Of a DNA stretch of 32,840 bases, positions 13,860 through 29,985 are shown piece after piece. The translations under genes were made by a program, and so were the position numbers. The stretch is from Muribaculaceae bacterium (GTDB lineage Bacteria > Bacteroidota > Bacteroidia > Bacteroidales > Muribaculaceae). How positions within the stretch are numbered: position 1 is the first letter of the stretch; every line of letters starts with the position of its first letter. The stretch lies in contig JAFUVK010000065.1 in NCBI GenBank assembly GCA_017477555.1, positions 1-32,840 on the forward strand, read 5' to 3'. Below the pieces are notes generated by a model. The model did no database searches and had not been told where the DNA came from. It saw nothing but the letters and a program-made list of their open reading frames with translations.

Positions 13860-13867
13860 TGAGATTT

Positions 13868-14472: not shown

Positions 14473-16017
14473 ATGAGCAAGATCACCATACTTTGGGCCG
14501 ACGATGAGATTGACCTGCTACGGCCGCACATCATGTTTCTCAACAATAAGGGCTACGACGTGGTCACTGTGACCAACGGACGTGACGCGCTCGATGCCAT
14601 CGAGGGCCAGCACTTCGACCTCATCATCCTCGATGAGAATATGCCGGGCATCAGCGGACTCGAGGCACTGCAGCGCATCAAGATTGCGCAGCCCACCGTG
14701 CCGGTGATCATGATTACCAAGAGCGAGGAGGAGAACATCATGAACCAGGCCATAGGCAGCGAGATTGCCGACTATCTCATCAAGCCTGTCAACCCGATGC
14801 AAATCTTGTTGTCAATCAAGAAGAACCTGCATAGCACCGAACTGGTGACAGAGAAGGTGACGGGTGACTATCGGCAGGAGTTCATCAACATCAGCAACCA
14901 GATTGGGGCAGCACAGACCATCGACGACTGGTATGAGCTGTACAGCAAGCTTGTGCGCTGGGAACTTACGCTAAGCGCTACCGACACAGGCATGGCCGAC
15001 ATGCTCAGGATGCAGAAGGACGAGGCCAACGCGGCGTTCTGCAAGTTTGTGCGGCGCAACTACGAGACGTGGGTCACCACCGACCAGCACCCCATGCGCA
15101 GCAACGACGTGTTCAAGAGCCGGGTGCTGCCACTGCTCGACAAGGGAGAAAAGGTGTTCTTTGTGGTCATCGACAACTTTCGTCTCGACCAGTGGAAGAC
15201 CATCAGCCCGCTGCTGGCCGAGCACTACAACATTGAGCGCGAGGAGCTGTACACTACCATTCTGCCTACGGCCACACAGTATGCGCGCAACGCCATCTTC
15301 TCGGGGCTGATGCCCATCGACATCGAGCGGATGTTTCCCGACCTGTGGGTCGACGAGGACTCGGAGGAAGGAAAAAACGTCAACGAGGCGCCACTCATCC
15401 AGACACTGCTCGACCGCTATCGCCGCAAGCTTCACTTCTCTTATAATAAGGTGAACGATGTGGCCGGCGGTGAGAAGCTACTGCAGAACTTCAACACGCT
15501 CAAGAGCTTCGACCTCAACGTGGTGGTCATCAACTTTGTGGACATGATGTCGCACGCACGCACCGAGAGCAAGATGATACGCGAGCTGGCAAATACCGAC
15601 AGCGCCTACCGCTCGCTCACCGAGTCGTGGTTCCGAACCAGCTATGCCATTGAGCTGTTTAAGCGCATGGCCGAGATGGGATATAAGGTGGTGGTCACCA
15701 CCGACCATGGCACCATACGCGTCGACAATCCCGTCAAGGTCATCGGCGACAAGAACACCAATGCCAACCTGCGCTACAAGCTAGGCAAGAACTTGAGCTA
15801 CAATGCCAAGCAGGTCTACGAGATTCTCAAGCCGCAGCGCTACGGACTGCCGTGTCCCAACGTGAGCACGGCCTATGTCTTTGCGCTGAATCGCGACTTC
15901 TTGGCCTATCCCAACAACTACAACTATTACGTGTCCTATTACACCGACACGTTCCAGCACGGCGGCATCTCGATGGAGGAGATGCTCGTGCCGCTGGTCA
16001 CGCTGGCTCCCAAGTAA
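14473..16017 (+). CDS. porX: PorX-type response regulator with a PglZ domain
   Basis: PorX is the response regulator that, with the sensor PorY and an ECF sigma factor, controls type IX secretion in Bacteroidetes. The 514-residue protein has an N-terminal receiver domain with Asp10/Asp11, the phosphorylation site Asp54 (LIILDENMPG), a TK motif near residue 81 and the conserved Lys in YLIKPVNP. A helical bundle comes next. Then a PglZ/alkaline-phosphatase-like domain follows from about residue 215, with LPTATQYARNAIFSGL (about 268) and TTDHGTIRVDNP (about 412) contributing metal-binding residues. This domain hydrolyses oligonucleotides in the studied homologue. No PorY or other secretion gene is in the window. 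Confidence 0.93.
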   Translation: MSKITILWADDEIDLLRPHIMFLNNKGYDVVTVTNGRDALDAIEGQHFDLIILDENMPGISGLEALQRIKIAQPTVPVIMITKSEEENIMNQAIGSEIADYLIKPVNPMQILLSIKKNLHSTELVTEKVTGDYRQEFINISNQIGAAQTIDDWYELYSKLVRWELTLSATDTGMADMLRMQKDEANAAFCKFVRRNYETWVTTDQHPMRSNDVFKSRVLPLLDKGEKVFFVVIDNFRLDQWKTISPLLAEHYNIEREELYTTILPTATQYARNAIFSGLMPIDIERMFPDLWVDEDSEEGKNVNEAPLIQTLLDRYRRKLHFSYNKVNDVAGGEKLLQNFNTLKSFDLNVVVINFVDMMSHARTESKMIRELANTDSAYRSLTESWFRTSYAIELFKRMAEMGYKVVVTTDHGTIRVDNPVKVIGDKNTNANLRYKLGKNLSYNAKQVYEILKPQRYGLPCPNVSTAYVFALNRDFLAYPNNYNYYVSYYTDTFQHGGISMEEMLVPLVTLAPK

Positions 16018-20434: not shown

Positions 20435-20513
20435 CCCCCTTGTTTTAGCCCCCCGGGCGCAACTTTTTTCTTAAAAAATGCGTCTAAACGGTGGCAATAC
20501 CAAAAAATGGCAT

Positions 20514-20521
20514 TACCTTTG
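20514..20521 (+). promoter_or_regulatory. -7 box at the head of the cytoskeletal gene block
   Basis: TACCTTTG lies 19 bases before the ATG at 20541, which would give a very short leader. The -33 region is poor. Confidence 0.5.
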
Positions 20522-20540: not shown

Positions 20541-21983
20541 ATGAAGATGAAGCAACTAATAGCACTATTGATGCCGGTGATGGTGGCACTGGCACTGGCC
20601 TCGTGCGGCAGCTCGCCGCTCGACAAGGCCATCAAGCACGCACTGGTGCAGCAAGACACCACACAGGCGCAGTTCGACTCAATCTGCGCCATCATCCGGC
20701 AGAACCCCGACCGCTACAGCCAGTATGTCGACAAGCAGGGGCAGGTCGACGTGGCGCAGCTGCAGGCACTCATCGACCGCATAGGCGGCGACCTGCGGCC
20801 ACCCATGCGATGGGACATCGCTCGCTATGGGCAGCAGGAACTGTCGCTCACCATCTACTTTGAGCGCAGCGGCTCGATGGTGCCATACGACAACGCCGGC
20901 GACCGCGGGCAGCTCAAGAAGGCCGTTAACGACATCATCAACCGCTTCCCGGGCCGCAAGGTGAACATCAACATCGTCAACGACGGAATCTATCCCTACC
21001 AGGGTACCGTCGACCAGTTCATCAAAGATCGGAACATCTATGCCAGCACGGCCGGAGTGGGCAACTCGGCCTTCACCGACTTCCAGCAAATCTTCGGTGC
21101 CATACTCAAGGCGCAGGACGCCACCAACGTCAGTGTGGTGGTCACCGACCTCATTTACTCGCCGGCCGATGCCGGCGATGTGAGCATCGACAAGATTCTG
21201 AACGAGGAGAATAGCCTGGCTACGAACATATTCCGGCACTACAAGGGCAAGTCGGTGCTGGTACATCAGCTCATGGGCGACTACAACGGCAAGTACTACC
21301 CCTACACCAACCGGCCGGTGGAGTACCGAGGCATGAGACCCTTCTATCTGCTGGTCATCGCCGATACGCCCGTGATGGATCGGATGGCGGCCCAGAGCGA
21401 CTATGCCGAGCTGCTGCACCCCGCAGCCGTGCGCCACAGCTACCGCTTCAACCAAAGTGAGGCGGCAGTAGACTACTGCGTGTTGCCCGACTGGAAGGAC
21501 AATGCCGGGCGATTCCGCGTCGACCACCACGATGCCACGCGCCTGACCAAGTGCCAGGCCGACAAGACCACAGGCATTTTGTGCCTGACCATTGCCGCGC
21601 GGCTGGATGGACTGCAAAAAGAGGCCGACTTTCTGGCCCAAGCAGGGAACTACAAGGTGCAGTCGGCCAGCGGATTTGAGCTGCGCGTCGCGCCCATCAC
21701 GCCCGACATGGTCACCGGCAACAACAAGATGTATCTCGACGGCAAGACGCACCTGCTCACGCTCACCGGCAAGTTTGTCGGCCCGCGCGACCAGCTCACC
21801 ATCAGCTTGCCCAACGAGCTGCCGGCATGGATTGGCCAGAGCAGCTCGCGCGACGACACCAACACCGCCGCCTCCGGTTTCTCGACCACCACGCTGGGAC
21901 TGAAGGAGTTTCTCGACGGCATAGCCGCGGCATTCGGCACCGGCGGCAACTACACCACACTCACTCTCAATCTCGAGAACTAA
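20541..21983 (+). CDS. Lipoprotein with a vWA-like domain
   Basis: The 480-residue product has a lipoprotein signal (MKMKQLIALLMPVMVALALASC) with the lipid-bearing Cys at residue 22. A helical segment follows. A vWA-like fold then starts near residue 103: LTIYFERSGSMVPYD carries an ExSxS in place of the usual DxSxS metal site. VNINIVNDGIYPY and VSVVVTDLIYSP (Asp near 204) fit the later strands. The C-terminal 150 residues look like a beta-rich domain. vWA domains bind protein partners through a metal ion. As the first gene of a co-directional block with tubulin-like and actin-like NTPases, it is likely an envelope anchor. The ATG at 20541 is chosen over an in-frame ATG at 20478, which lies upstream of the -7 box. 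Confidence 0.8.
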   Translation: MKMKQLIALLMPVMVALALASCGSSPLDKAIKHALVQQDTTQAQFDSICAIIRQNPDRYSQYVDKQGQVDVAQLQALIDRIGGDLRPPMRWDIARYGQQELSLTIYFERSGSMVPYDNAGDRGQLKKAVNDIINRFPGRKVNINIVNDGIYPYQGTVDQFIKDRNIYASTAGVGNSAFTDFQQIFGAILKAQDATNVSVVVTDLIYSPADAGDVSIDKILNEENSLATNIFRHYKGKSVLVHQLMGDYNGKYYPYTNRPVEYRGMRPFYLLVIADTPVMDRMAAQSDYAELLHPAAVRHSYRFNQSEAAVDYCVLPDWKDNAGRFRVDHHDATRLTKCQADKTTGILCLTIAARLDGLQKEADFLAQAGNYKVQSASGFELRVAPITPDMVTGNNKMYLDGKTHLLTLTGKFVGPRDQLTISLPNELPAWIGQSSSRDDTNTAASGFSTTTLGLKEFLDGIAAAFGTGGNYTTLTLNLEN

Positions 21984-21999
21984 AAAATCTGTAACCGCT

Positions 22000-22042
22000 C
22001 GAATGTTCGAAAACTCGAATGTTCGAATGTTCGAAAATTCGT
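22000..22042. repeat. Period-8 CGA/TTCGAA array
   Basis: CG starts at 22000, 22008, 22016, 22024, 22032 and 22040, exactly eight bases apart, mostly as TTCGAA or CTCGAA. It fills the gap between the lipoprotein gene and the next gene and ends 13 bases before the ATG. Confidence 0.85.
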
Positions 22043-22055
22043 TTACAAAAGAAAT

Positions 22056-22505
22056 ATGAAGAAGCAACACTACATCTATCTGGCACTGGGCATCGCGGCT
22101 ACCCTATTGTTCTATGTGCTGCGCGTGCAGGCCTACGAGGCCATCTACTCTGTGCCGGGCTTTAGCGACCAGTTCTACAACGCCGGGCTCTACGACATGA
22201 TTCCGCTCATCACCATTGCCGTGCCATGGGCTGCAGCCGCCATCTACTACTACGCCATCAACTCCGTGCGCTTCGACCGTTGGTTCCACTGGCTGCTGGT
22301 GGGCGGCATCTCCACGTTGCTCACACCCATCATCGGCTATGCCGTCAACCAGAGCGTGTTTGCCGACCTGGGGCTGAGCTATGGGGCCGAGTCGTTGTCG
22401 TTTGAGCTGGCCAACATGGTGTGGGCTGCGGTGATGTTTGTCGTCGCGTCGTTCGCAATGCGCTGGTGGAGCAGCAACTGCCGTCACACCCCCATCCCGC
22501 AGTGA
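22056..22505 (+). CDS. Four-helix integral membrane protein, unknown family
   Basis: The 149-residue protein has about four membrane segments: residues about 7-22 (YLALGIAATLLFYVLR), 48-67 (MIPLITIAVPWAAAAIYYY), 78-98 and 118-138. Tyr- and Trp-rich loops join them. No charged residue in the membrane suggests a channel or transport role. I recognise no family. It lies 72 bases after the vWA lipoprotein gene and 189 bases before the tubulin-like gene on the same strand, so it is plausibly the membrane subunit of the same system. Confidence 0.75.
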   Translation: MKKQHYIYLALGIAATLLFYVLRVQAYEAIYSVPGFSDQFYNAGLYDMIPLITIAVPWAAAAIYYYAINSVRFDRWFHWLLVGGISTLLTPIIGYAVNQSVFADLGLSYGAESLSFELANMVWAAVMFVVASFAMRWWSSNCRHTPIPQ

Positions 22506-22558
22506 CCGCTCCTCCTGGGGCAAGTGCGCTTCACTGAATCGCGAATTGCGCAAAAAAT

Positions 22559-22586
22559 CGAAAGTTCGAGAATTCGATAATTCGAG
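22559..22586. repeat. Period-8 CGA array, 4 units
   Basis: CGA at 22559, 22567, 22575 and 22583, in TTCGAGAA/TTCGATAA context. It is directly followed by the CGCG hairpin repeats at 22601-22680. Confidence 0.8.
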
Positions 22587-22600
22587 ATAAATAAACGACC

Positions 22601-22680
22601 TTCGCGTAATGCGCGGTAAAAAAGAGATTCGCGTAATGCGCGGTTAAAATAAAAGAACGTTCGCGAGGATTTCGCGGTTA
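22601..22680. repeat. Three TTCGCG...CGCGGT(T)A repeats before the tubulin-like gene
   Basis: TTCGCGTAATGCGCGGTA begins at 22601, a near-identical copy at 22628, and TTCGCGAGGATTTCGCGGTTA at 22660. Each can form a short CGCG stem. The last runs into AATAATAAAGGAAAG, the ribosome-binding region of the gene at 22695. Confidence 0.75.
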
Positions 22681-22694
22681 ATAATAAAGGAAAG

Positions 22695-24209
22695 ATGCGA
22701 TTATTTCTATTTGCAATAGGTGGCACCGGGTCACGCGTGCTCAAGTCACTGATTATGCTCTCGGCTGCCGGTGTGCGACCCGTCGACGAGAACGGCCGGC
22801 CCGTTCCTAACATCGAAATCGTGCCCGTGATTATCGACCCGCACAAGAGCAATGAAGACCTCAAGCGCACTGAGGCGCTGCTCACGGCCTACCGCAGCCT
22901 GCGCCAGCGGCTGTATGGCAACGCCGTCAATGCCGATGGCTTCTTTGCCACACGCTTTGTCACACTGCGCGAGATCATGAGCGAGGGAACCATACAGCTC
23001 AACGACACATTCATCTTCAACCTTGGGGCCGTGGAGCGCGAGAAGTTTCGCGACTTCATCGGCTACGACACCATGAACGAGGCCAACCAAGCGTTGACAT
23101 CGCTCTTGTTTGCCGACTATCAGCTCGAGAATCGCATGAACATAGGCTTTGTGGGATCGCCCAACATCGGCTCGGTGGCACTCAACGAGATCAAGGACAG
23201 CGACGAGTTCAAGGCCTTTGCCAACGTATTCAACCAGGGCGACCGCATCTTCTTCATCAGCTCAATCTTTGGCGGCACCGGTGCCGCGGGATTCCCCATC
23301 ATGGTCAAGAACATCCGGCAGGCCAAGAACCTCGAAATCAACAACCGCGACGTGCTGCGCAAGGCACCCATCGGCGGACTCACTGTGTTGCCATACTTCA
23401 ATATCGAGCATAACGACGACCGGCGCATCGACAAGGCCGACTTCATCGTCAAGACTCAGAGCGCACTCTACTACTACAAGGACACCATGACCGGGGCCAA
23501 CGATTCTAACCTCAACGCCATCTTCTATGTGGGCGACCAGGAGGTGAGCAAGCCCTACACTTACGACCCCGGCGAGCATGGACAGCGCAACCGGGCCCAC
23601 CTGGTGGAGCTGGTAGGAGCGCTGGCACCGCTCAAGTTTGCAGGCATGCCGCTCAACCGCCTGAGCGACCCCGACGGCTACCCATTGCCCACCAGCGCCT
23701 TTGAGTTTGCCCTCGACAAGGACGAGCGCGATGTCAACTTCCTGACCCTGCGCGCCGCCACGCGCCGTCTGGTTTACGAGCCGCTGGTGCGCTTCCACCT
23801 GCTCTTCCTGTATCTGCGCACAGGATTCCGCGACCAGGTGGGGCAGGGATATACCGAGGATGCCCCAAAAATCAAGAGCGACTTCCTTAACTCGCAGTTC
23901 TACCGGACACTCACCGACGACTTTATGCGCGCCTACGTCGACTGGCTCGTAGAGATGCACGACAACAACCGCTCGGTGAGCCTGTTCAGCTTGGGAGAGA
24001 CCGACATGAACCGCGCCATCACCCGCGTGGCCACGCGCAAGGGGCTGCTCGGACACAAGAGTGTGGACAACAACGTGTTTAAGGCCGAGATGAACCGCCT
24101 GAGCCGCGATGCCGGCTACAGCGAGCACACCGTCGAGTACAAGCTGCTCGACCTGTTCAACCGTGCCGCCACACGCATCATCGCCGAACGCTACGAGGCC
24201 ATCAACTGA
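22695..24209 (+). CDS. Tubulin/FtsZ-like GTPase-family protein
   Basis: The 504-residue protein begins MRLFLFAIGGTGSRVLKSL, a first-strand plus T1-type phosphate loop (GGTGSR at residues 9-14). It has FFISSIFGGTGAAGFP near residues 186-201, which matches the tubulin T4 signature GGGTGSG in form and place. This puts it in the divergent tubulin-like group (Tubulin_2 type) and not among canonical FtsZ. The C-terminal 300 residues are helical and specific to this group. FtsZ-like families next to vWA proteins have been proposed by Makarova and Koonin to form a membrane-remodelling system. ATG at 22695 follows AAAGGAAAG. The next gene follows after 48 bases. Confidence 0.8.
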   Translation: MRLFLFAIGGTGSRVLKSLIMLSAAGVRPVDENGRPVPNIEIVPVIIDPHKSNEDLKRTEALLTAYRSLRQRLYGNAVNADGFFATRFVTLREIMSEGTIQLNDTFIFNLGAVEREKFRDFIGYDTMNEANQALTSLLFADYQLENRMNIGFVGSPNIGSVALNEIKDSDEFKAFANVFNQGDRIFFISSIFGGTGAAGFPIMVKNIRQAKNLEINNRDVLRKAPIGGLTVLPYFNIEHNDDRRIDKADFIVKTQSALYYYKDTMTGANDSNLNAIFYVGDQEVSKPYTYDPGEHGQRNRAHLVELVGALAPLKFAGMPLNRLSDPDGYPLPTSAFEFALDKDERDVNFLTLRAATRRLVYEPLVRFHLLFLYLRTGFRDQVGQGYTEDAPKIKSDFLNSQFYRTLTDDFMRAYVDWLVEMHDNNRSVSLFSLGETDMNRAITRVATRKGLLGHKSVDNNVFKAEMNRLSRDAGYSEHTVEYKLLDLFNRAATRIIAERYEAIN

Positions 24210-24257
24210 CGACATTAACAGCCACCTTGTAATTTTCAATTTTCAATTACAGAGACA

Positions 24258-27200
24258 ATGAGCGAGATATTATCATACAGCAACAAGACGTCGCGCGGAG
24301 GAAACGAGGACTGGATTCCTGTTGAGCCTTACCAAGACGACGACATAGCACGCATCAAGGATCCCGATGGAGGGCTGAGCCGCAACCCGCGCACAGCCAT
24401 TCCCAGCCCGTTCGCACAGCTCGACTTGGTCAAGAATGCTTTCACACAGCTGGCCAACCCCAACCTGCGCGGAGCGGCCATGAACGAGCGACTGGTGTCG
24501 AACGCCCTCGACGTGATGCAACTGCTGTTCGACTACGAGAACCACAAGGACTACTTGCGGCTGGTGCGATGGAACCGCGACGAGCAGCTGGCAGTGCTCA
24601 AGGACAATGCGACACACCGCCTGTATGGCGAAACACTGGAGCTGTTCCTGGCCAGCGACACGGTCTATAACTTCGATGACCTGCACGACTGGTACATACT
24701 CATGTACGACAACATGGTGCTCGGAGGCACCAGCCCGGCATCGCTGGTGATGGCCGCACCCGTCAGCGGGCCGGTCGATGCCATCAAGGTGGAGCAGGGC
24801 GTGACTCTGTTCTCCACCGACCGCCCCCTGTGGCAGCGCGACGAAGACTTTGTCTACTACCTCTATCTGCTGATGAACGCCTATCCCGTGCTGCGCGAGC
24901 GCGTGGGATGCGTCTATAGCTACATGATTCACAACATCGACTACCTGCGTCGGCAGCGACCTGAGCTCTACCGCCGCATCACCGACGTGGTGCCCAACCT
25001 CAACGCGCTGAGCCACGACCTGGCCAATTCGGTGCTCGAGCGGTTGGAGCAGACGTTCGACCGCTTTGGCGGCAGTGCCGATGTGAGTGTGCTGGGAGCA
25101 AGGTTCTACCACAAGCGTGTGATGGACATTCGCACCAGCGCGGCACAGAGCGACTTCGTCATCCAGCCCACTATGCCGCAGCCCGAGGCCACGACACTGC
25201 CACTGGTGCTGCGCACGGGATTCAACGGCTCGGTCGAGCACTACCGATACATCGACAAAGAGTGGGACAGTGCCACCGAGGTGCTGGCCGGAGGACTGCC
25301 CCTGGCCGAACGGAAGTTGCCCGACACCAGCATCCAGTACCCCTTCATCACCACCGACGACCTGCTGGCACCCGAGCTGGTGCGACTGAGCAACGCCATC
25401 GACAACGACCACTACTTCGACGGCAACCTGCGGTCCAATGGGCAGACAGCCACGCGGGGCTATCTGCTGCCGCTCAAGCCCGAGTTCTTCCGTTGGTTCA
25501 CCGCGGCCGACCTGCGCGGGCGTGTCGCGGGACGCAACATGATGGACATCGAGGAGCTGAGCGACGGCAGCGTGCAGGTGACGTTGCGCATACCCATCAA
25601 AAAGCGCTGCATCGAGCTCTCGCGGCGCTATCTTGTCACCACCGACCCCACCTGGCAGTGGGACGAACGCCGCGGCACGGGGCGCATTGTCGACTCCATA
25701 GTCAGTGTCAGTGTCTTCCCGTTTGTGCGCACCGACCGCAACGACGACTATACCGTGCAATTGTTCTCGATGATTCCCGACGGCCAGGTGTCGCTGCGCT
25801 TTCTGCGCGATGGAGGCACCACAGCCGGCATCAACGTCACCGGAAAGGTAAGGGCACGACAGGTGTTCACCACCACCTACTACGACATCAACGGCACATG
25901 GGACTACGCCGAGGCCACGGTGCACATGCCCATGGGCAACTTTGCGGGCATCATCTTGCCCAGGTGGAAACCTTACACTCCCTCGGCGCGCGAACTGGTA
26001 TTTGCTGTCGACTTCGGCACGACCAACACACACGTCGAGTGGGCCGACCGCGGACAGGTGTCGCAGCCGCTGACCTTCGACTGGAGCAGCGAACAGGTGC
26101 TCATCGCGTCGCTGCTCAAGCAGGGCGGCCTCGACATCGCCGAGCAGCTCCAGCGCATCGAGTTCCTGCCGCGAGTCATCGACACGGTCTATGGCTTTCC
26201 CATGCGGTCGTCGCTGGCACGCAACCTGGGCAGTGACGGCGGCAACAGGCTGTTTCACGATGTGAACATCCCGTTTCTCTACGAGCGCAAGTACTTCCAG
26301 GGCTACGAGGTGATGACCAACCTGAAGTGGATGGGCGACACCACGCTGGCGCGCGAGTTCCTGCGCGAGCTGATGCTGCTCATCAAGGCCAAGGCTCTGC
26401 TCGAGAGCGCCGACCTGAGCCGCACACAGGTCATCTACTTCTTCCCTGTGAGCATGGGCGGAAGCGACCGGCGCAAGTTGCGCGACACCTGGGAGGACCT
26501 CTATCGCACTTACATGAGTGCCGACCTGACACACCTCCAGGCCTATCCCGAGTCGATAGCCCCGGCGTTCTACTACAAGAGTGCCGCCGTGAGCGGAAGC
26601 AGTTATGTGAGCATCGACATTGGAGGCGGCACTAGCGATGTGGTCATCTACCAGCCCACTCCCGACCGCCTGGCTAGTCAGCCGGTGGCCATATCCTCGT
26701 TCCGCTTTGCCGGCAATGCGCTCTTTGGCGATGCCTTCGGCGAGCGTGATGCCGACACCAACCCCCTGCTGCAGCACTACAGCCAGTACTTCACACGACT
26801 GATTGAGAACGACCGCACGTCGGGCATCAGCTATCTGACAAGCATCCTGCACGACATCATGCAGCAGAAGCGAAGCGAGGACATCAACGCGTTCTTGTTC
26901 TCGATTGAGAACGTCGAGGAGCTGCGGGGACTGCGCGACATCGACCGCAGTCTGTACAGCTATAACACGCTCTTGCGCAACGACGAGCAGCGCAAGCTGG
27001 TGTTCATGTACTTCTTCGCTGCACTCATCTACTACATTGCGCGAACCATGCACGCCAGGCACTACGAGAAACCCAAGCAGGTCTACTTCAGCGGCACGGG
27101 CTCCAAAATTCTGAACATCGTGGGTAGCCATAGCCAGGTCGAGGAGCTGGCGCAGACCATCATCGAGCGTGTTTATGGCGAGACCTATACCGAACGATTT

Positions 27201-27704
27201 GAGGTAAAGATCGAGACCGAGTGCCCCAAGCAAATCACTTGTCGGGGCGGCATCAAACTCGAGAACCAGCGCCTCGACGGGCAGGTCAGTACAGCTGTCT
27301 ATAGTCCGCGCAATGTGGTAGCGCTCAAGTATTGCTACTCGATGCTGGGCGACGAGCAACTCACTTTTGAGCAGGTCAACGACCTGGGCATTAGGGAACA
27401 AATTGTGCAGCAGGTGAGGCAGTTCAACGAATTCTTTGTGGCACTGCTCGACAAGGCCACCAAGGATGACTACGGCATCGACAACACTGTGCTCCGACTG
27501 TTTACCGACGTGGTGGGCAACGACCTGGACAACTACCTCACCGCAGGAATCAATAGTTATCTGGGTGGACGCTATGAGCCGGCCGATGTGGTCGAGGATG
27601 TGCCATTCTTCTATCCCATCATTGGCACCATACGTTATAACTTGATGCGCAACCTGTGCAACGAGGTCATCAGCCGCCTGCGCAACCAGGGCGACATCAA
27701 CTAA
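24258..27704 (+). CDS. Large protein with an actin/Hsp70-type ATPase domain (SrfB-like)
   Basis: This 1148-residue protein has two parts. Residues 1 to about 570 are of no family I recognise, rich in Arg/Asp/Tyr. From about 580 an actin-superfamily ATPase fold is clear. The phosphate-1 loop is VFAVDFGTTNTHVEW (about 580-594). Phosphate-2 is YVSIDIGGGTSDVVIYQ (about 782-798). The adenosine motif is VYFSGTGSKILNIVG (about 941-955). The order and spacing fit a large MreB/Hsp70-like domain and resemble the virulence-factor SrfB family; that name is by architecture only. No signal peptide or membrane helix is present, so it is cytoplasmic. It directly follows the tubulin-like gene, so two cytoskeletal NTPase folds are encoded side by side. 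Confidence 0.8.
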   Translation: MSEILSYSNKTSRGGNEDWIPVEPYQDDDIARIKDPDGGLSRNPRTAIPSPFAQLDLVKNAFTQLANPNLRGAAMNERLVSNALDVMQLLFDYENHKDYLRLVRWNRDEQLAVLKDNATHRLYGETLELFLASDTVYNFDDLHDWYILMYDNMVLGGTSPASLVMAAPVSGPVDAIKVEQGVTLFSTDRPLWQRDEDFVYYLYLLMNAYPVLRERVGCVYSYMIHNIDYLRRQRPELYRRITDVVPNLNALSHDLANSVLERLEQTFDRFGGSADVSVLGARFYHKRVMDIRTSAAQSDFVIQPTMPQPEATTLPLVLRTGFNGSVEHYRYIDKEWDSATEVLAGGLPLAERKLPDTSIQYPFITTDDLLAPELVRLSNAIDNDHYFDGNLRSNGQTATRGYLLPLKPEFFRWFTAADLRGRVAGRNMMDIEELSDGSVQVTLRIPIKKRCIELSRRYLVTTDPTWQWDERRGTGRIVDSIVSVSVFPFVRTDRNDDYTVQLFSMIPDGQVSLRFLRDGGTTAGINVTGKVRARQVFTTTYYDINGTWDYAEATVHMPMGNFAGIILPRWKPYTPSARELVFAVDFGTTNTHVEWADRGQVSQPLTFDWSSEQVLIASLLKQGGLDIAEQLQRIEFLPRVIDTVYGFPMRSSLARNLGSDGGNRLFHDVNIPFLYERKYFQGYEVMTNLKWMGDTTLAREFLRELMLLIKAKALLESADLSRTQVIYFFPVSMGGSDRRKLRDTWEDLYRTYMSADLTHLQAYPESIAPAFYYKSAAVSGSSYVSIDIGGGTSDVVIYQPTPDRLASQPVAISSFRFAGNALFGDAFGERDADTNPLLQHYSQYFTRLIENDRTSGISYLTSILHDIMQQKRSEDINAFLFSIENVEELRGLRDIDRSLYSYNTLLRNDEQRKLVFMYFFAALIYYIARTMHARHYEKPKQVYFSGTGSKILNIVGSHSQVEELAQTIIERVYGETYTERFEVKIETECPKQITCRGGIKLENQRLDGQVSTAVYSPRNVVALKYCYSMLGDEQLTFEQVNDLGIREQIVQQVRQFNEFFVALLDKATKDDYGIDNTVLRLFTDVVGNDLDNYLTAGINSYLGGRYEPADVVEDVPFFYPIIGTIRYNLMRNLCNEVISRLRNQGDIN

Positions 27705-27717
27705 TCGTCTTCCCATA

Positions 27718-27735
27718 CCGTGACTTCTGTCACGG
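27718..27735 (+). promoter_or_regulatory. Small perfect hairpin just upstream of the next start
   Basis: CCGTGAC-TTCT-GTCACGG lies 14 bases after the 1148-residue protein's stop and 17 bases before the ATG at 27752. It may modulate translation or 3' processing between the two genes. There is no T-run. Confidence 0.5.
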
Positions 27736-27751
27736 CCAAAAACGACAAAGA

Positions 27752-28843
27752 ATGAAAAAACTTATCACAATCAGCCTGGCCGCAATGATGATGATGGTGG
27801 CCATGGCGCAAGGCGACAGTACTGCACTGACGCAGCAGCAGTGGCAACATGCCCTGGCCGTGATTGCGCAGTATGAAGCACTCAATGGTGGCTATGGGCA
27901 GAAGACCGACGACTTCGAGGCGCAGGCACCACAGGGCTATACACTGGATGACCTCGATGCCGTCTACCGCCCACAAAGCCAGTGGGAACCGGTGTACAAC
28001 CGGCTGAAAGCGCTGGAGAACGATGGGGGCAACATGGCTCGCGTCAAGCAGCTGGCAGGCGCCCTGGCGCAGCACGTGGAGCGCGACATGACGCGCTACC
28101 TGCAGCAGTCGGCGAGCCAGCAGGGGCAACCCCTGGCCGAGGTCGACACGGCACCACCCGTGCCCGACACCATCCCGGTTACCGACCTGCCCAATGAGCC
28201 GGCCCAGACCCAGCAGAAAGCTGGACTGAACACCCATCTGCTTTTTGACGCATTGCTGGCACTGCTGGCTCTGGCCGCACTGGCCATGGCGTGGCTCAAC
28301 CATAGCAGGCTGAACAAGCTCCGCAGGGCCACACGCTCGGAGCTGGAGGCTACCAACCAGAACATGCAACAGTTGGCCGACGACGTGTCGCAGCACGTCA
28401 AGGCATTGTTGCAGCGCGTGGGAAACATCGAGGCCAACCAGCGCGTGATGAAGCCAAGGCAGGTGGAGCGCGCACAAGGCGACCATCAGCAACGCGCCGC
28501 TCAACCGCAGCCTGAGGTCACCACACGCACCTACTATTTGTCGAAACCCGACGACAACGACTGCTTCAACCGAGTGAGCGAACACTTTGAGTTGGGTAAC
28601 TCGCTCTTTGAACTGGTCACTAACGACGGCATACATGGTTCTTATCAGGTGATTGACAACCGTGATGTGCACCGATTCGCACTGATGATGCCCACAGAAA
28701 ACCTCACGCGGGCCTGCTCGGGCAACGCCATACAGATGTCGGCCGGCATGACGCGCATCGTCACCGACCGGCCCGGCGAGGCTGTGCTCGACAACGGACA
28801 GTGGCGCATCATCGTCAAGGCCATCATCCACTACGAGGCATAG
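27752..28843 (+). CDS. Exported single-pass membrane protein with coiled coil, unknown family
   Basis: The 363-residue product starts with a signal peptide (MKKLITISLAAMMMMVAMAQ) followed by a Gln-rich helical region. A membrane helix lies near residues 165-185 (LLALLALAALAMAWL). After it comes a coiled-coil stretch (LRRATRSELEATNQNMQQLA) and a C-terminal cytoplasmic domain from about residue 250 (TYYLSKPDDNDCFNRVSEHF). This topology would link the periplasm to cytoplasmic partners, such as the two NTPases encoded upstream. I chose the ATG at 27752 because the signal peptide begins there. It ends in TAG. Function is unknown. Confidence 0.78.
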   Translation: MKKLITISLAAMMMMVAMAQGDSTALTQQQWQHALAVIAQYEALNGGYGQKTDDFEAQAPQGYTLDDLDAVYRPQSQWEPVYNRLKALENDGGNMARVKQLAGALAQHVERDMTRYLQQSASQQGQPLAEVDTAPPVPDTIPVTDLPNEPAQTQQKAGLNTHLLFDALLALLALAALAMAWLNHSRLNKLRRATRSELEATNQNMQQLADDVSQHVKALLQRVGNIEANQRVMKPRQVERAQGDHQQRAAQPQPEVTTRTYYLSKPDDNDCFNRVSEHFELGNSLFELVTNDGIHGSYQVIDNRDVHRFALMMPTENLTRACSGNAIQMSAGMTRIVTDRPGEAVLDNGQWRIIVKAIIHYEA

Positions 28844-28862
28844 CAAACAGCGAAATAAAAAA

Positions 28863-28923
28863 CTAGAACCAAGAACCAAGAGCCAAGGACCGAGCCGTAG
28901 CTGTAGTCCGAGGCTCCGCCTCG
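28863..28923. repeat. Period-7 CAAGAAC array and CCGAGG hairpin
   Basis: CTAGAAC, CAAGAAC, CAAGAGC and CAAGGAC follow without gap (28863-28890), exactly seven bases each. A hairpin TCCGAGG-CTCCG-CCTCGGA then ends a few bases before the ATG at 28928. Confidence 0.7.
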
Positions 28924-28927
28924 GAAA

Positions 28928-29407
28928 ATGAATTGGAACTGTCCTAATTGTGGAAAACGCGTAGAATTCTCGGCCGAGCAATTGGCCGAGACGCGCGGTG
29001 TGGTAGTGTGTCCCCAGTGCCTGTCGAGTGACAAGGTGCCGGGATATGACGCACCCCACACCTCGCGCGCCGCGGCATCCACTACCTCCACTACCTCCAC
29101 TAAATCCCGTCGGTCCCAGCCGTCGGCCCCATCGCAATCAGGGCGCAACATGACCACACCACCGCCACATAACAAACCATCCACACCACCTCCGCACCGA
29201 AGACGCATCAGCTTTGTCGACAAGGAGGACACACCCAAGCCGGCCAAACCACAAAAGTCGACCGGGAAAAAGAAAAAAGCCAAGACATCCAGCAAGGGAC
29301 TCTTGGCTCCTAAATCGGCACTGGGCTGCCTGTGGCGCTCGGTGGTCTACACCTTGCTCCTGCTCATCGCCTACATCGTCGTCGGCCTGCTCCTCCAGGG
29401 CATTTAG
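28928..29407 (+). CDS. Zinc-ribbon protein with a C-terminal membrane anchor (paralogue)
   Basis: The 159-residue protein begins with an MJ0042-type ribbon (CPNCGKRV and VVCPQC). It is parallel to the first ribbon of the protein at 13908 (CPxCGK...VVCPQCL). A long low-complexity linker rich in Thr, Ser, Pro and Lys follows. The end is one membrane helix (SVVYTLLLLIAYIVVGLLL). It lacks the second ribbon of the paralogue. As the last gene of the block beginning at 20541, it is probably a membrane-held adaptor. It ends in TAG. Confidence 0.8.
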   Translation: MNWNCPNCGKRVEFSAEQLAETRGVVVCPQCLSSDKVPGYDAPHTSRAAASTTSTTSTKSRRSQPSAPSQSGRNMTTPPPHNKPSTPPPHRRRISFVDKEDTPKPAKPQKSTGKKKKAKTSSKGLLAPKSALGCLWRSVVYTLLLLIAYIVVGLLLQGI

Positions 29408-29502: not shown

Positions 29503-29742
29503 CGCGTCACTGCTATCTCAATTCATAATAACCGTCGGGCATCAAGCCCGAAGGGCTGGCAGACCACAGGCCGGGGTGGAGCGATAGCGTAACCCCGGTG
29601 CAGATGGCCGCCCTAGCTCGAAGCCCTGAAAGGGCGGCAGACCACCTGCGTCACTGCCATGCAGATAATGCGGCCCATCCCGTTCGGCCTGGCTGAGTAA
29701 AACCCCACCCCAACCCCTCCCCTTTGGGAAAGGGGAGGGGAG
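29503..29742. repeat. Duplicated intergenic block, copy 1
   Basis: It starts GCGTCACTGCTATCT, contains GGCATCAAGCCCGAAGGGCTGG, AAGCCCTGAAAGGGCGGCAG and GCAGATAATGCGGCCCATCC, and ends in the perfect palindrome CCCCTCCCCTTT-GGG-AAAGGGGAGGGG (29714-29740). Copy 2 is 244 bases downstream and nearly identical over most of its length. Confidence 0.9.
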
Positions 29743-29756
29743 CAAGAGGAGGGTGC

Positions 29757-29985
29757 CTGCGTCACTGCTATCTAACCGTCCGGCATCAAGCCCGAAGGGC
29801 TGGCAGACCACAGGCCGGGGTGGAGCGATAGCGTAACCCCGGTGCAGATGGCCGCCCTGCCTCGAAGCCCTGAAAGGGCGGCAGCCTCCCCCGCGTCACT
29901 GCCATGCAGATAATGCGGCCCATCCCGTTCGGCCTGGTGAATGAAACCCCAACCCAACCCCTCCCCTTTGGGAAAGGGGAGGGGG
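29757..29985. repeat. Duplicated intergenic block, copy 2
   Basis: It matches copy 1 from GCGTCACTGCTATCT to the final palindrome (29958-29984), with small insertions or deletions and a few changes. Internal mini-hairpins such as GCCC-GAA-GGGC are shared. Confidence 0.9.

Follow-up and report, generated by a model that had tools for sequence, protein, structure and literature searches.

Introduction

To our knowledge, FtsZ and FtsA are the main known case of a tubulin-fold and an actin-fold protein that are encoded in one operon and work together. Tubulin-like proteins of the FtsZl1 kind are encoded in operons with vWA proteins, for which a role in membrane remodelling has been proposed (Makarova and Koonin 2010, PMC2875224; this and the other papers are cited from the parts of their text available to us). 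Tubulin and HSP70 themes both occur in the predicted GTPase-centric conflict systems of Kaur et al. 2020, as non-overlapping themes reported from firmicutes and actinobacteria (PMC7159879). The ZorAB complex of Zorya is a 5:2 ion-driven motor that needs peptidoglycan binding and a cytoplasmic tail and directs the Zorya nuclease to the membrane upon infection (PMC11890865), and vWA proteins encoded beside MotAB/TolQR-type motors have been proposed to act as motor-driven force transducers (PMC12204202). Here we describe six genes, A to F, in a 32,840-nucleotide stretch of the genome of a gut Muribaculaceae bacterium (assembly GCA_017477555.1, contig JAFUVK010000065.1, positions 1 to 32,840; hereafter the window), among which a gene for a tubulin-fold protein (C) directly precedes one for a protein with an actin/Hsp70-type fold (D). 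The genes keep a fixed order behind a single promoter-like site and are under purifying selection. The tubulin-actin module is a real, conserved and apparently undescribed NTPase system that probably acts at the envelope.

The tubulin-fold and actin-fold proteins

Protein C has no hydropathy segments, and its tubulin/FtsZ nucleotide-binding fold, proposed in an earlier sequence-only reading of the window, is upheld by structure searches; T1-type and T4-type GTP-binding loops are present in all 96 distinct near-full-length C proteins. The pattern NxDxxD, which we take to represent the catalytic acidic T7 loop of FtsZ, occurs anywhere in the protein in 2 of these 96, as judged by a pattern test, and the T7 motif was not recognised in the window protein. 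The Pfam Tubulin_2 profile (PF13809) matches 19 of 21 members of the C family with a best E-value of 2.5e-6; the window protein (14.4 bits) and its relative from Cryomorpha ignava (L096, 25 bits) both fall short of the cut-off of 27, which the C protein of some other relative may reach. Searched against PDB sequences, the C profile gave one chance-level match (E-value 0.19). C is not an ordinary FtsZ orthologue: the FtsZ C-terminal domain (PF12327) has no match in it, and the sole PF12327 match of the genome is an ordinary FtsZ on another contig (C194), so that C is an extra tubulin-type protein. A plasmid partitioning pair was likewise rejected, on the lack of any match to the C. ignava C protein among phage records and on the chromosome-sized contigs of several relatives; in a plasmid collection six records matched, the best being a Prevotella replicon of 1.77 Mb (47.9%) and the other five cyanobacterial (24-30%).

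Protein D, also without hydropathy segments, had been described as an 1148-residue protein of the actin/Hsp70 fold. The assignment holds for the motifs and for residues 577-1017, to which structure searches confine the fold and for which PilM and FtsA rank near the top by Z; it does not extend to the whole protein, the N-terminal ~570 residues having no assigned fold. The phosphate-1, phosphate-2 and adenosine motifs that mark an actin-like fold are present in D, and among 89 distinct near-full-length D proteins DxGTTN is found in 80, DxGGGTxD in 83 and SGTGSK in 74. A D profile found no match among PDB sequences. FtsA, together with EutA, is the Pfam family to which D most often shows a weak match (8 of 19 D proteins, best E-value 3.6e-4). 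The earlier lead to SrfB proved weak: PF07520 matches 3 of the 19 proteins with a best E-value of 0.043 and does not match the window D at E-values up to 1. A SrfABC homologue was rejected on this score, and the literature on SrfABC shows no link to a tubulin among the 20 of 842 matches listed.

Gene layout and promoter

The six open reading frames (ORFs) are all on the forward strand within window positions 20541-29407, in the place, order and orientation described from the sequence and with gaps of 47 to 189 bases: 72 (A-B), 189 (B-C), 48 (C-D), 47 (D-E) and 84 (E-F). Upstream of A, TACCTTTG is taken here as a Bacteroidetes-type -7 promoter element (consensus TAnnTTTG) and is the sole forward-strand copy of that consensus from position 13860 to the end of the window (Table 1). 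Because it falls downstream of the ATG at 20478, at which the ORF finder starts a longer A, the start at 20541 is preferred; the Pfam, NCBIfam and PADLOC searches of the six proteins used A from 20478 and E from 27746, both slightly long, and the NCBIfam search gave no match over cut-off. TAnnTTTG occurs between -150 and +30 of A in 48 of the 51 genus loci in which the gene set is complete and the upstream sequence long enough, against 5.1 expected from mononucleotide shuffles, and in 11 of 255 internal gaps of the same loci, these gaps being shorter (medians 43-107 bases). In a consensus scan sigma-70 promoters and terminators were no commoner than in shuffled sequences. Two tandem copies of a ~244-base repeat lie 3' of F (window 29529-29985), and a 91-base part of it, with 46 matches spread over many contigs of the genome, marks it as a dispersed repeat.

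Table 1. Features of the six-gene locus, in window coordinates (TM, transmembrane segment)
Feature	Position	Strand	Description
-7 promoter-like motif TACCTTTG	20514..20521	+	~20 bases 5' of A start
A	20541..21983	+	480-aa lipoprotein; vWA-like ExSxSM motif and D...S pair
B	22056..22505	+	149-aa four-TM protein; conserved C-terminal tail (S-x-N-C-R-H-T-P)
C	22695..24209	+	504-aa tubulin/FtsZ-fold protein; T1 and T4 GTP-binding loops
D	24258..27704	+	1148 aa; residues 577-1017 with actin/Hsp70/sugar-kinase-type ATPase fold
E	27752..28843	+	363-aa exported single-pass protein; coiled coil, conserved C-terminal domain
F	28928..29407	+	159 aa; zinc ribbon (CxxC...CxxC), Pro-rich linker, C-terminal TM anchor

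The membrane-associated proteins

Protein A was first described as a vWA-like lipoprotein. Its lipoprotein nature and the vWA-like motif stand: a single N-terminal hydropathy segment ends at the lipobox Cys, and this Cys, E108, S110, S112, M113, D203 and S207 are invariant in 17 of 17 aligned sequences. As a candidate vWA partner in the operon A carries ExSxSM in all 17 proteins, yet none of the 17 matches the Pfam VWA profile, and A has no PDB match at E-values up to 5. Protein B has four hydropathy segments, in agreement with its description as a four-helix membrane protein, and its tail (the last 14 columns of an alignment of 22 sequences) has a mean top-residue frequency of 0.63 against 0.42 elsewhere. 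If the four segments and their positive ends are so read, the tail would face the cytoplasm and is a candidate docking peptide, comparable to those that PilN and FtsN carry for PilM and FtsA.

Protein E, described as exported and single-pass, indeed has one segment (163-181) and a signal peptide as judged by eye, and its C-terminal domain can be aligned phylum-wide (the E profile was built without the row of L083, which is out of frame). The N-terminal part is probably periplasmic, and the coiled coil and conserved C-terminal domain would lie in the cytoplasm. Protein F likewise fits its portrayal as a tail-anchored zinc-ribbon protein, with a match to Zn_ribbon_4 (E-value 1.9e-5, 24.9 bits) below the cut-off of 30.3 and a single segment, 138-156, that ends three residues short of the C-terminus. 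None of the six window proteins has a Pfam GTPase match, so that no P-loop GTPase partner was found in the operon.

Conservation within the genus

The kin of the window genome are mostly metagenome-assembled genomes labelled Muribaculaceae, Prevotellaceae or Bacteroidales, three being labelled Candidatus Sodaliphilus, and on these labels the genus is termed Sodaliphilus-like. C is found in 36 of 37 genus genomes, the window genome included, and the one without it is 74% complete. In 65 of the 66 genus loci the detected genes follow the order A-B-C-D-E-F; L050 has no detectable E, L040 and L086 no detectable F, L047 has only A-B-C followed by an RHS-type insert, and several genus contigs are cut short. 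Where computable against five relatives, dN/dS is 0.035-0.34, and C has the lowest value in every comparison; for F the value rests on a wrong match in one relative and is saturated in another.

Most genes that flank the cluster in the window are missing from the 66 genus loci: upp and the endonuclease-like gene each recur in 4, the kbl-like gene recurs in 2 and the 863-aa gene, at 24-55% identity, in 13, and the porX-like and four-helix genes recur in none; these counts are lower bounds, because full 10-kb flanks are present in 39 of the 66. The nearest relatives (L032, L035, L089) retain upp. The porX-like gene is a 514-aa ORF (window 14473-16017) that has the look of a PorX-type response regulator, PorX being a regulator of type IX secretion; it lies beside the cluster in none of the 66 loci. 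Some relatives have insertions between C and D (L038:11528-12796, L039:11515-14948, L047:11527-20306, L052:11589-12053), the inserts comprising a YhcG/DUF1016 nuclease gene whose start repeats N-terminal residues of D, RHS-repeat and AAA-type ATPase genes, and a PDDEXK_3 gene.

Distribution outside the genus

A sample of 395 genomes of the phylum, searched at an E-value of 1e-10, contained C in 12 and D in 9, the window genome included. All 8 other D-positive genomes fall among the 11 other C-positive ones (of 394), which has a probability of 1.2e-14 if the two genes are independent and kinship is ignored. At the level of the order C occurs in 18 of 295 genomes, a count that includes the window genome and several weak matches, and it is missing from the three listed genomes that belong to the same family but to other genera. 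Thirty-two divergent loci have a strong C match (E-value < 1e-50), 31 of them outside the genus and one a second copy in a genus genome, G034; they include locus pairs from G620 and from G666 and exclude L128, L129, L131 and L132, whose C matches reach 1e-21 to 1e-25. D follows C on the same strand in 30 of the 32; the two exceptions are L153 and L120, the latter with a broken C and no D. As far as the contigs reach, A and B lie ahead of C in all loci but L153, and in L130 they look fused; the A-B-C-D order is found in other classes as well, e.g. in L127. E is detected in 23 of the 27 divergent loci with room downstream, the match in L157 being doubtful because no gene is seen between D and ZorA there. 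The co-conservation in related genomes on which the sequence-only reading depended therefore extends far beyond the genus, and the tubulin-like and actin-like assignments have both survived the structure searches.

In a more distant tubulin-like clade a C relative adjoins TerD genes (L129:2172-4063; the one tested has a TerD E-value of 3.6e-50), a neighbourhood that links this clade to Ter-type stress systems. A neighbor in L128 (7877-8455) is TerD-like by eye and has no Pfam match.

A Zorya-like motor and other accessory genes

ZorA-like and ZorB-like genes are present in 17 of the 27 divergent loci with room downstream and absent from ten (L121, L126, L127, L130, L133, L134, L149, L150, L153, L159). 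The ZorA/ZorB profiles include 11 of these 17 loci as rows, which were first found by reading and BLAST, and G419, G447, G226 and G132 match these profiles by construction. The ZorB-like protein of L096 matches PADLOC ZorB1 at 2.3e-15, the ZorB-like profile matches 8vvn_B (1e-10) and 8qyd_F (2.4e-8) in PDB, which we take to be Zorya chains, and the membrane Asp D15 is invariant in 11 of 11 sequences; the matches of the ZorA-like protein are weaker (PADLOC 0.0052 in L096; PDB 8vvi_F, E-value 0.5). The motor of the wider family has an OmpA-type, peptidoglycan-reaching domain, and its ZorA-like protein a long C-terminal tail. Neither gene is present in the window operon, and the profiles match nothing in the window genome and nothing in 16 of 17 genus genomes. 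The remaining one, G034, has a ZorA/ZorB-like pair away from the core, on contig C13 (L135:10473-14982), behind a 780-aa protein with a PDDEXK_1 match of 4.4e-4 (under cut-off); this pair is possibly another Zorya-like system, on a different contig than the second core of that genome. The six window proteins had no PADLOC match, whether to the effector models (ZorC/D, ZorE, ZorF/G) or to any other, and the nine L096 proteins had none to the Zor effector models.

Genes for a staphylococcal-nuclease (SNase) domain follow the core in L096 (7.2e-26) and L156 (4.1e-29), retropepsin-like protease genes in L096, L149 and L157, and trypsin-like protease genes in L151 and L156; most of these downstream nuclease and protease products have a lipobox, as judged by eye. 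The C. ignava version of the system comprises nine genes, and that of Chitinophaga silvisoli lacks the SNase gene. The statements on Asp proteases are based on Pfam and BLAST because the AspP profile took in long open frames, and its matches in L103, L133 and L136 are doubtful. Downstream of motor-less cores are found a WG-repeat protein (L121 and L126) and a weakly SH3-like one (L127).

Evolution of the locus

In a quick maximum-likelihood tree of 46 C proteins, which has long branches and an unsure root, the motor label undergoes five changes among the labelled rows. The window clade of 12 rows (the genus rows, the mouth Prevotella L134 and the second copy of G034) is motor-free with support of 100 and is nested among motor-bearing rows, so that motor loss in this clade is the simplest reading. 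It appears from these sequences that the motor was lost, F was gained and the module came close to fixation in the genus. In the window clade E is followed by zinc-ribbon membrane proteins, one in L134 and five in the second copy of G034. The latter five (L136:8431-14621) are Pro-rich, single-TM proteins with differing outer domains and possibly form an array of variable sensors; the second core of G034 also has an extra D-like ORF. Zinc-ribbon-looking genes were seen by eye, with no systematic scan, near the motor-less L149 and L150.

Proposed function and alternatives

The six genes may be regarded as one operon for a trans-envelope NTPase machine whose likeliest job is envelope guarding, an account that as a whole is offered tentatively and at a little less than an even chance. 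That the products form a single envelope machine was already suggested by the sequence-only reading, and gene order, the common promoter-like site and the co-occurrence of the genes speak for it; guarding is favored because relatives carry a ZorA/ZorB-like motor and some carry lipoprotein nuclease or protease genes. By their folds and adjacency C and D would constitute an FtsZ-FtsA-like pair on the cytoplasmic face, in which C would bind GTP and form polymers or a switchable oligomer and D would be its ATP-dependent membrane-side adaptor, both docked to the membrane by the cytoplasmic tail of B and the cytoplasmic domain of E. A, a lipoprotein on the outside, may be a periplasmic sensor or output. 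When the wall or inner membrane is disturbed, for instance by entering phage DNA, C and D would change their nucleotide state and thereby evoke a response at that spot; in motor-bearing relatives the motor could, by analogy with Zorya, turn a disturbance of the wall into such a change, and the window lineage would have kept just the core and F. A bolder version, which we consider unlikely, is a new trans-envelope class in which a proton-driven ZorAB-type motor is coupled via its cytoplasmic tail to C and D, with outer lipoproteins as sensors and effectors and immunity to DNA entry as its purpose, Sodaliphilus having shed the motor and fixed the core.

One alternative is a housekeeping envelope skeleton, i.e. 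a second FtsZ/FtsA-like system for shape, elongation or septation, in which the motor of the relatives serves wall-linked movement or force and immunity plays no part. The presence of C in 36 of 37 genus genomes, purifying selection that is strongest on C in all five comparisons, and the ordinary FtsZ on another contig that makes C an extra are consistent with such a role, as are the proposal of force transduction by vWA proteins beside TolQR-type motors (PMC12204202, in the part available) and the irregular rods, up to 50 µm long and becoming shorter and thicker with longer incubation, of Sodaliphilus pleomorphus (PMC7738495, in the part available). However, the link to long cells is a genus-level coincidence; outside the genus the system has a scattered distribution, with 11 of 394 genomes in the phylum, 17 of 294 in the order (both counts including weak distant matches) and none of the three listed from the family's other genera, and nuclease and protease partners do not point to shape control. 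On balance a skeleton seems somewhat unlikely. Quite unlikely, in our judgment, is a thresholding switch without filaments, modelled on the tubulin- and HSP70-containing DO-GTPase systems of Kaur et al. 2020 (PMC7159879, in the part available), in which C and D would be GTP- and ATP-driven chaperone-like switches that set the threshold of an effector: no DO-GTPase is apparent among the six proteins, none of which has a Pfam GTPase match, the two themes of that model are described as non-overlapping and from firmicutes and actinobacteria, and the weak Pfam matches of D run most often to FtsA and EutA. That six unrelated genes are adjacent by chance is scarcely credible. Cargo genes (RHS-repeat, YhcG and PDDEXK_3 nuclease) do enter between C and D in some relatives, so that this junction is not untouchable, but the order in 65 of 66 genus loci, the C-D co-occurrence (1.2e-14, with independence assumed and kinship ignored) and the recurrence of A-B-C-D in other classes already contradict it.

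A second, independent tubulin-actin pairing, tied in relatives to a Zorya-type motor and lipoprotein nuclease genes, would join bacterial cytoskeletons to envelope immunity and hint at a role for one among the numerous tubulin-like proteins that have none assigned. Named strains carry members of the family, namely Chitinophaga silvisoli (L105), C. ignava (L096) and Persicitalea jodogahamensis (L102), which makes the system open to testing.

Comparison with known systems

Like the FtsZl1/PF13809 systems, the locus has a tubulin-fold protein beside a candidate vWA protein and membrane proteins, and OmpA-family genes occur in several FtsZl1 genomes (PMC2875224, available part). Unlike them, C lies below the PF13809 cut-off in the window and in L096, and the window C reaches roughly half the length of the 912-aa Tubulin_2 member of the same genome; the window operon is without a P-loop GTPase match, such a partner being frequent but not universal in FtsZl1 operons; and C nearly always has an actin-fold neighbor, which finds no mention in the available part of PMC2875224. 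The window genome has a separate cluster of FtsZl1 type (C196:573-8512, L137) that encodes a VWA protein (3.1e-5), the 912-aa Tubulin_2 protein (1.9e-46) and a 1149-aa papain-family peptidase.

The wider family shares with Zorya the ZorA/ZorB-like genes, the long C-terminal tail of the ZorA-like protein and, in some loci, nuclease genes nearby; it differs from Zorya in lacking any ZorC-G match among the six window and nine L096 proteins, in the motor-free window clade and in a core that is a tubulin-fold/actin-fold pair. The predicted conflict systems of Kaur et al. 2020 resemble it in having tubulin and Hsp70 folds near the membrane and vWA partners in the tubulin theme (PMC7159879, available part), whereas here both folds share one operon, the hosts are Bacteroidota, and the six proteins have no GTPase match (GAP1 was not searched for). 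A resembles the proposed motor-coupled vWA proteins in being a candidate vWA-type protein genetically tied to a MotAB/TolQR-type motor in many relatives, but A is a lipoprotein without a transmembrane motor helix, and tubulin and actin folds are outside that proposal as given in the available part of PMC12204202. Nothing on a tubulin-actin pairing appears in the available parts of PMC7824862, PMC12904381 and PMC12082470, and no tubulin-actin-motor operon was found in the open-access literature among the matches listed, subscription papers and preprints being mostly outside its scope. The FtsZ-FtsA and PilM-PilN pairs are not orthologous to C and D, as the genome has its own FtsZ elsewhere and C has no PF12327. 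Within the tubulin-vWA kind, the system stands out through the actin-fold partner of C and, in many of its relatives, through a Zorya-type motor.

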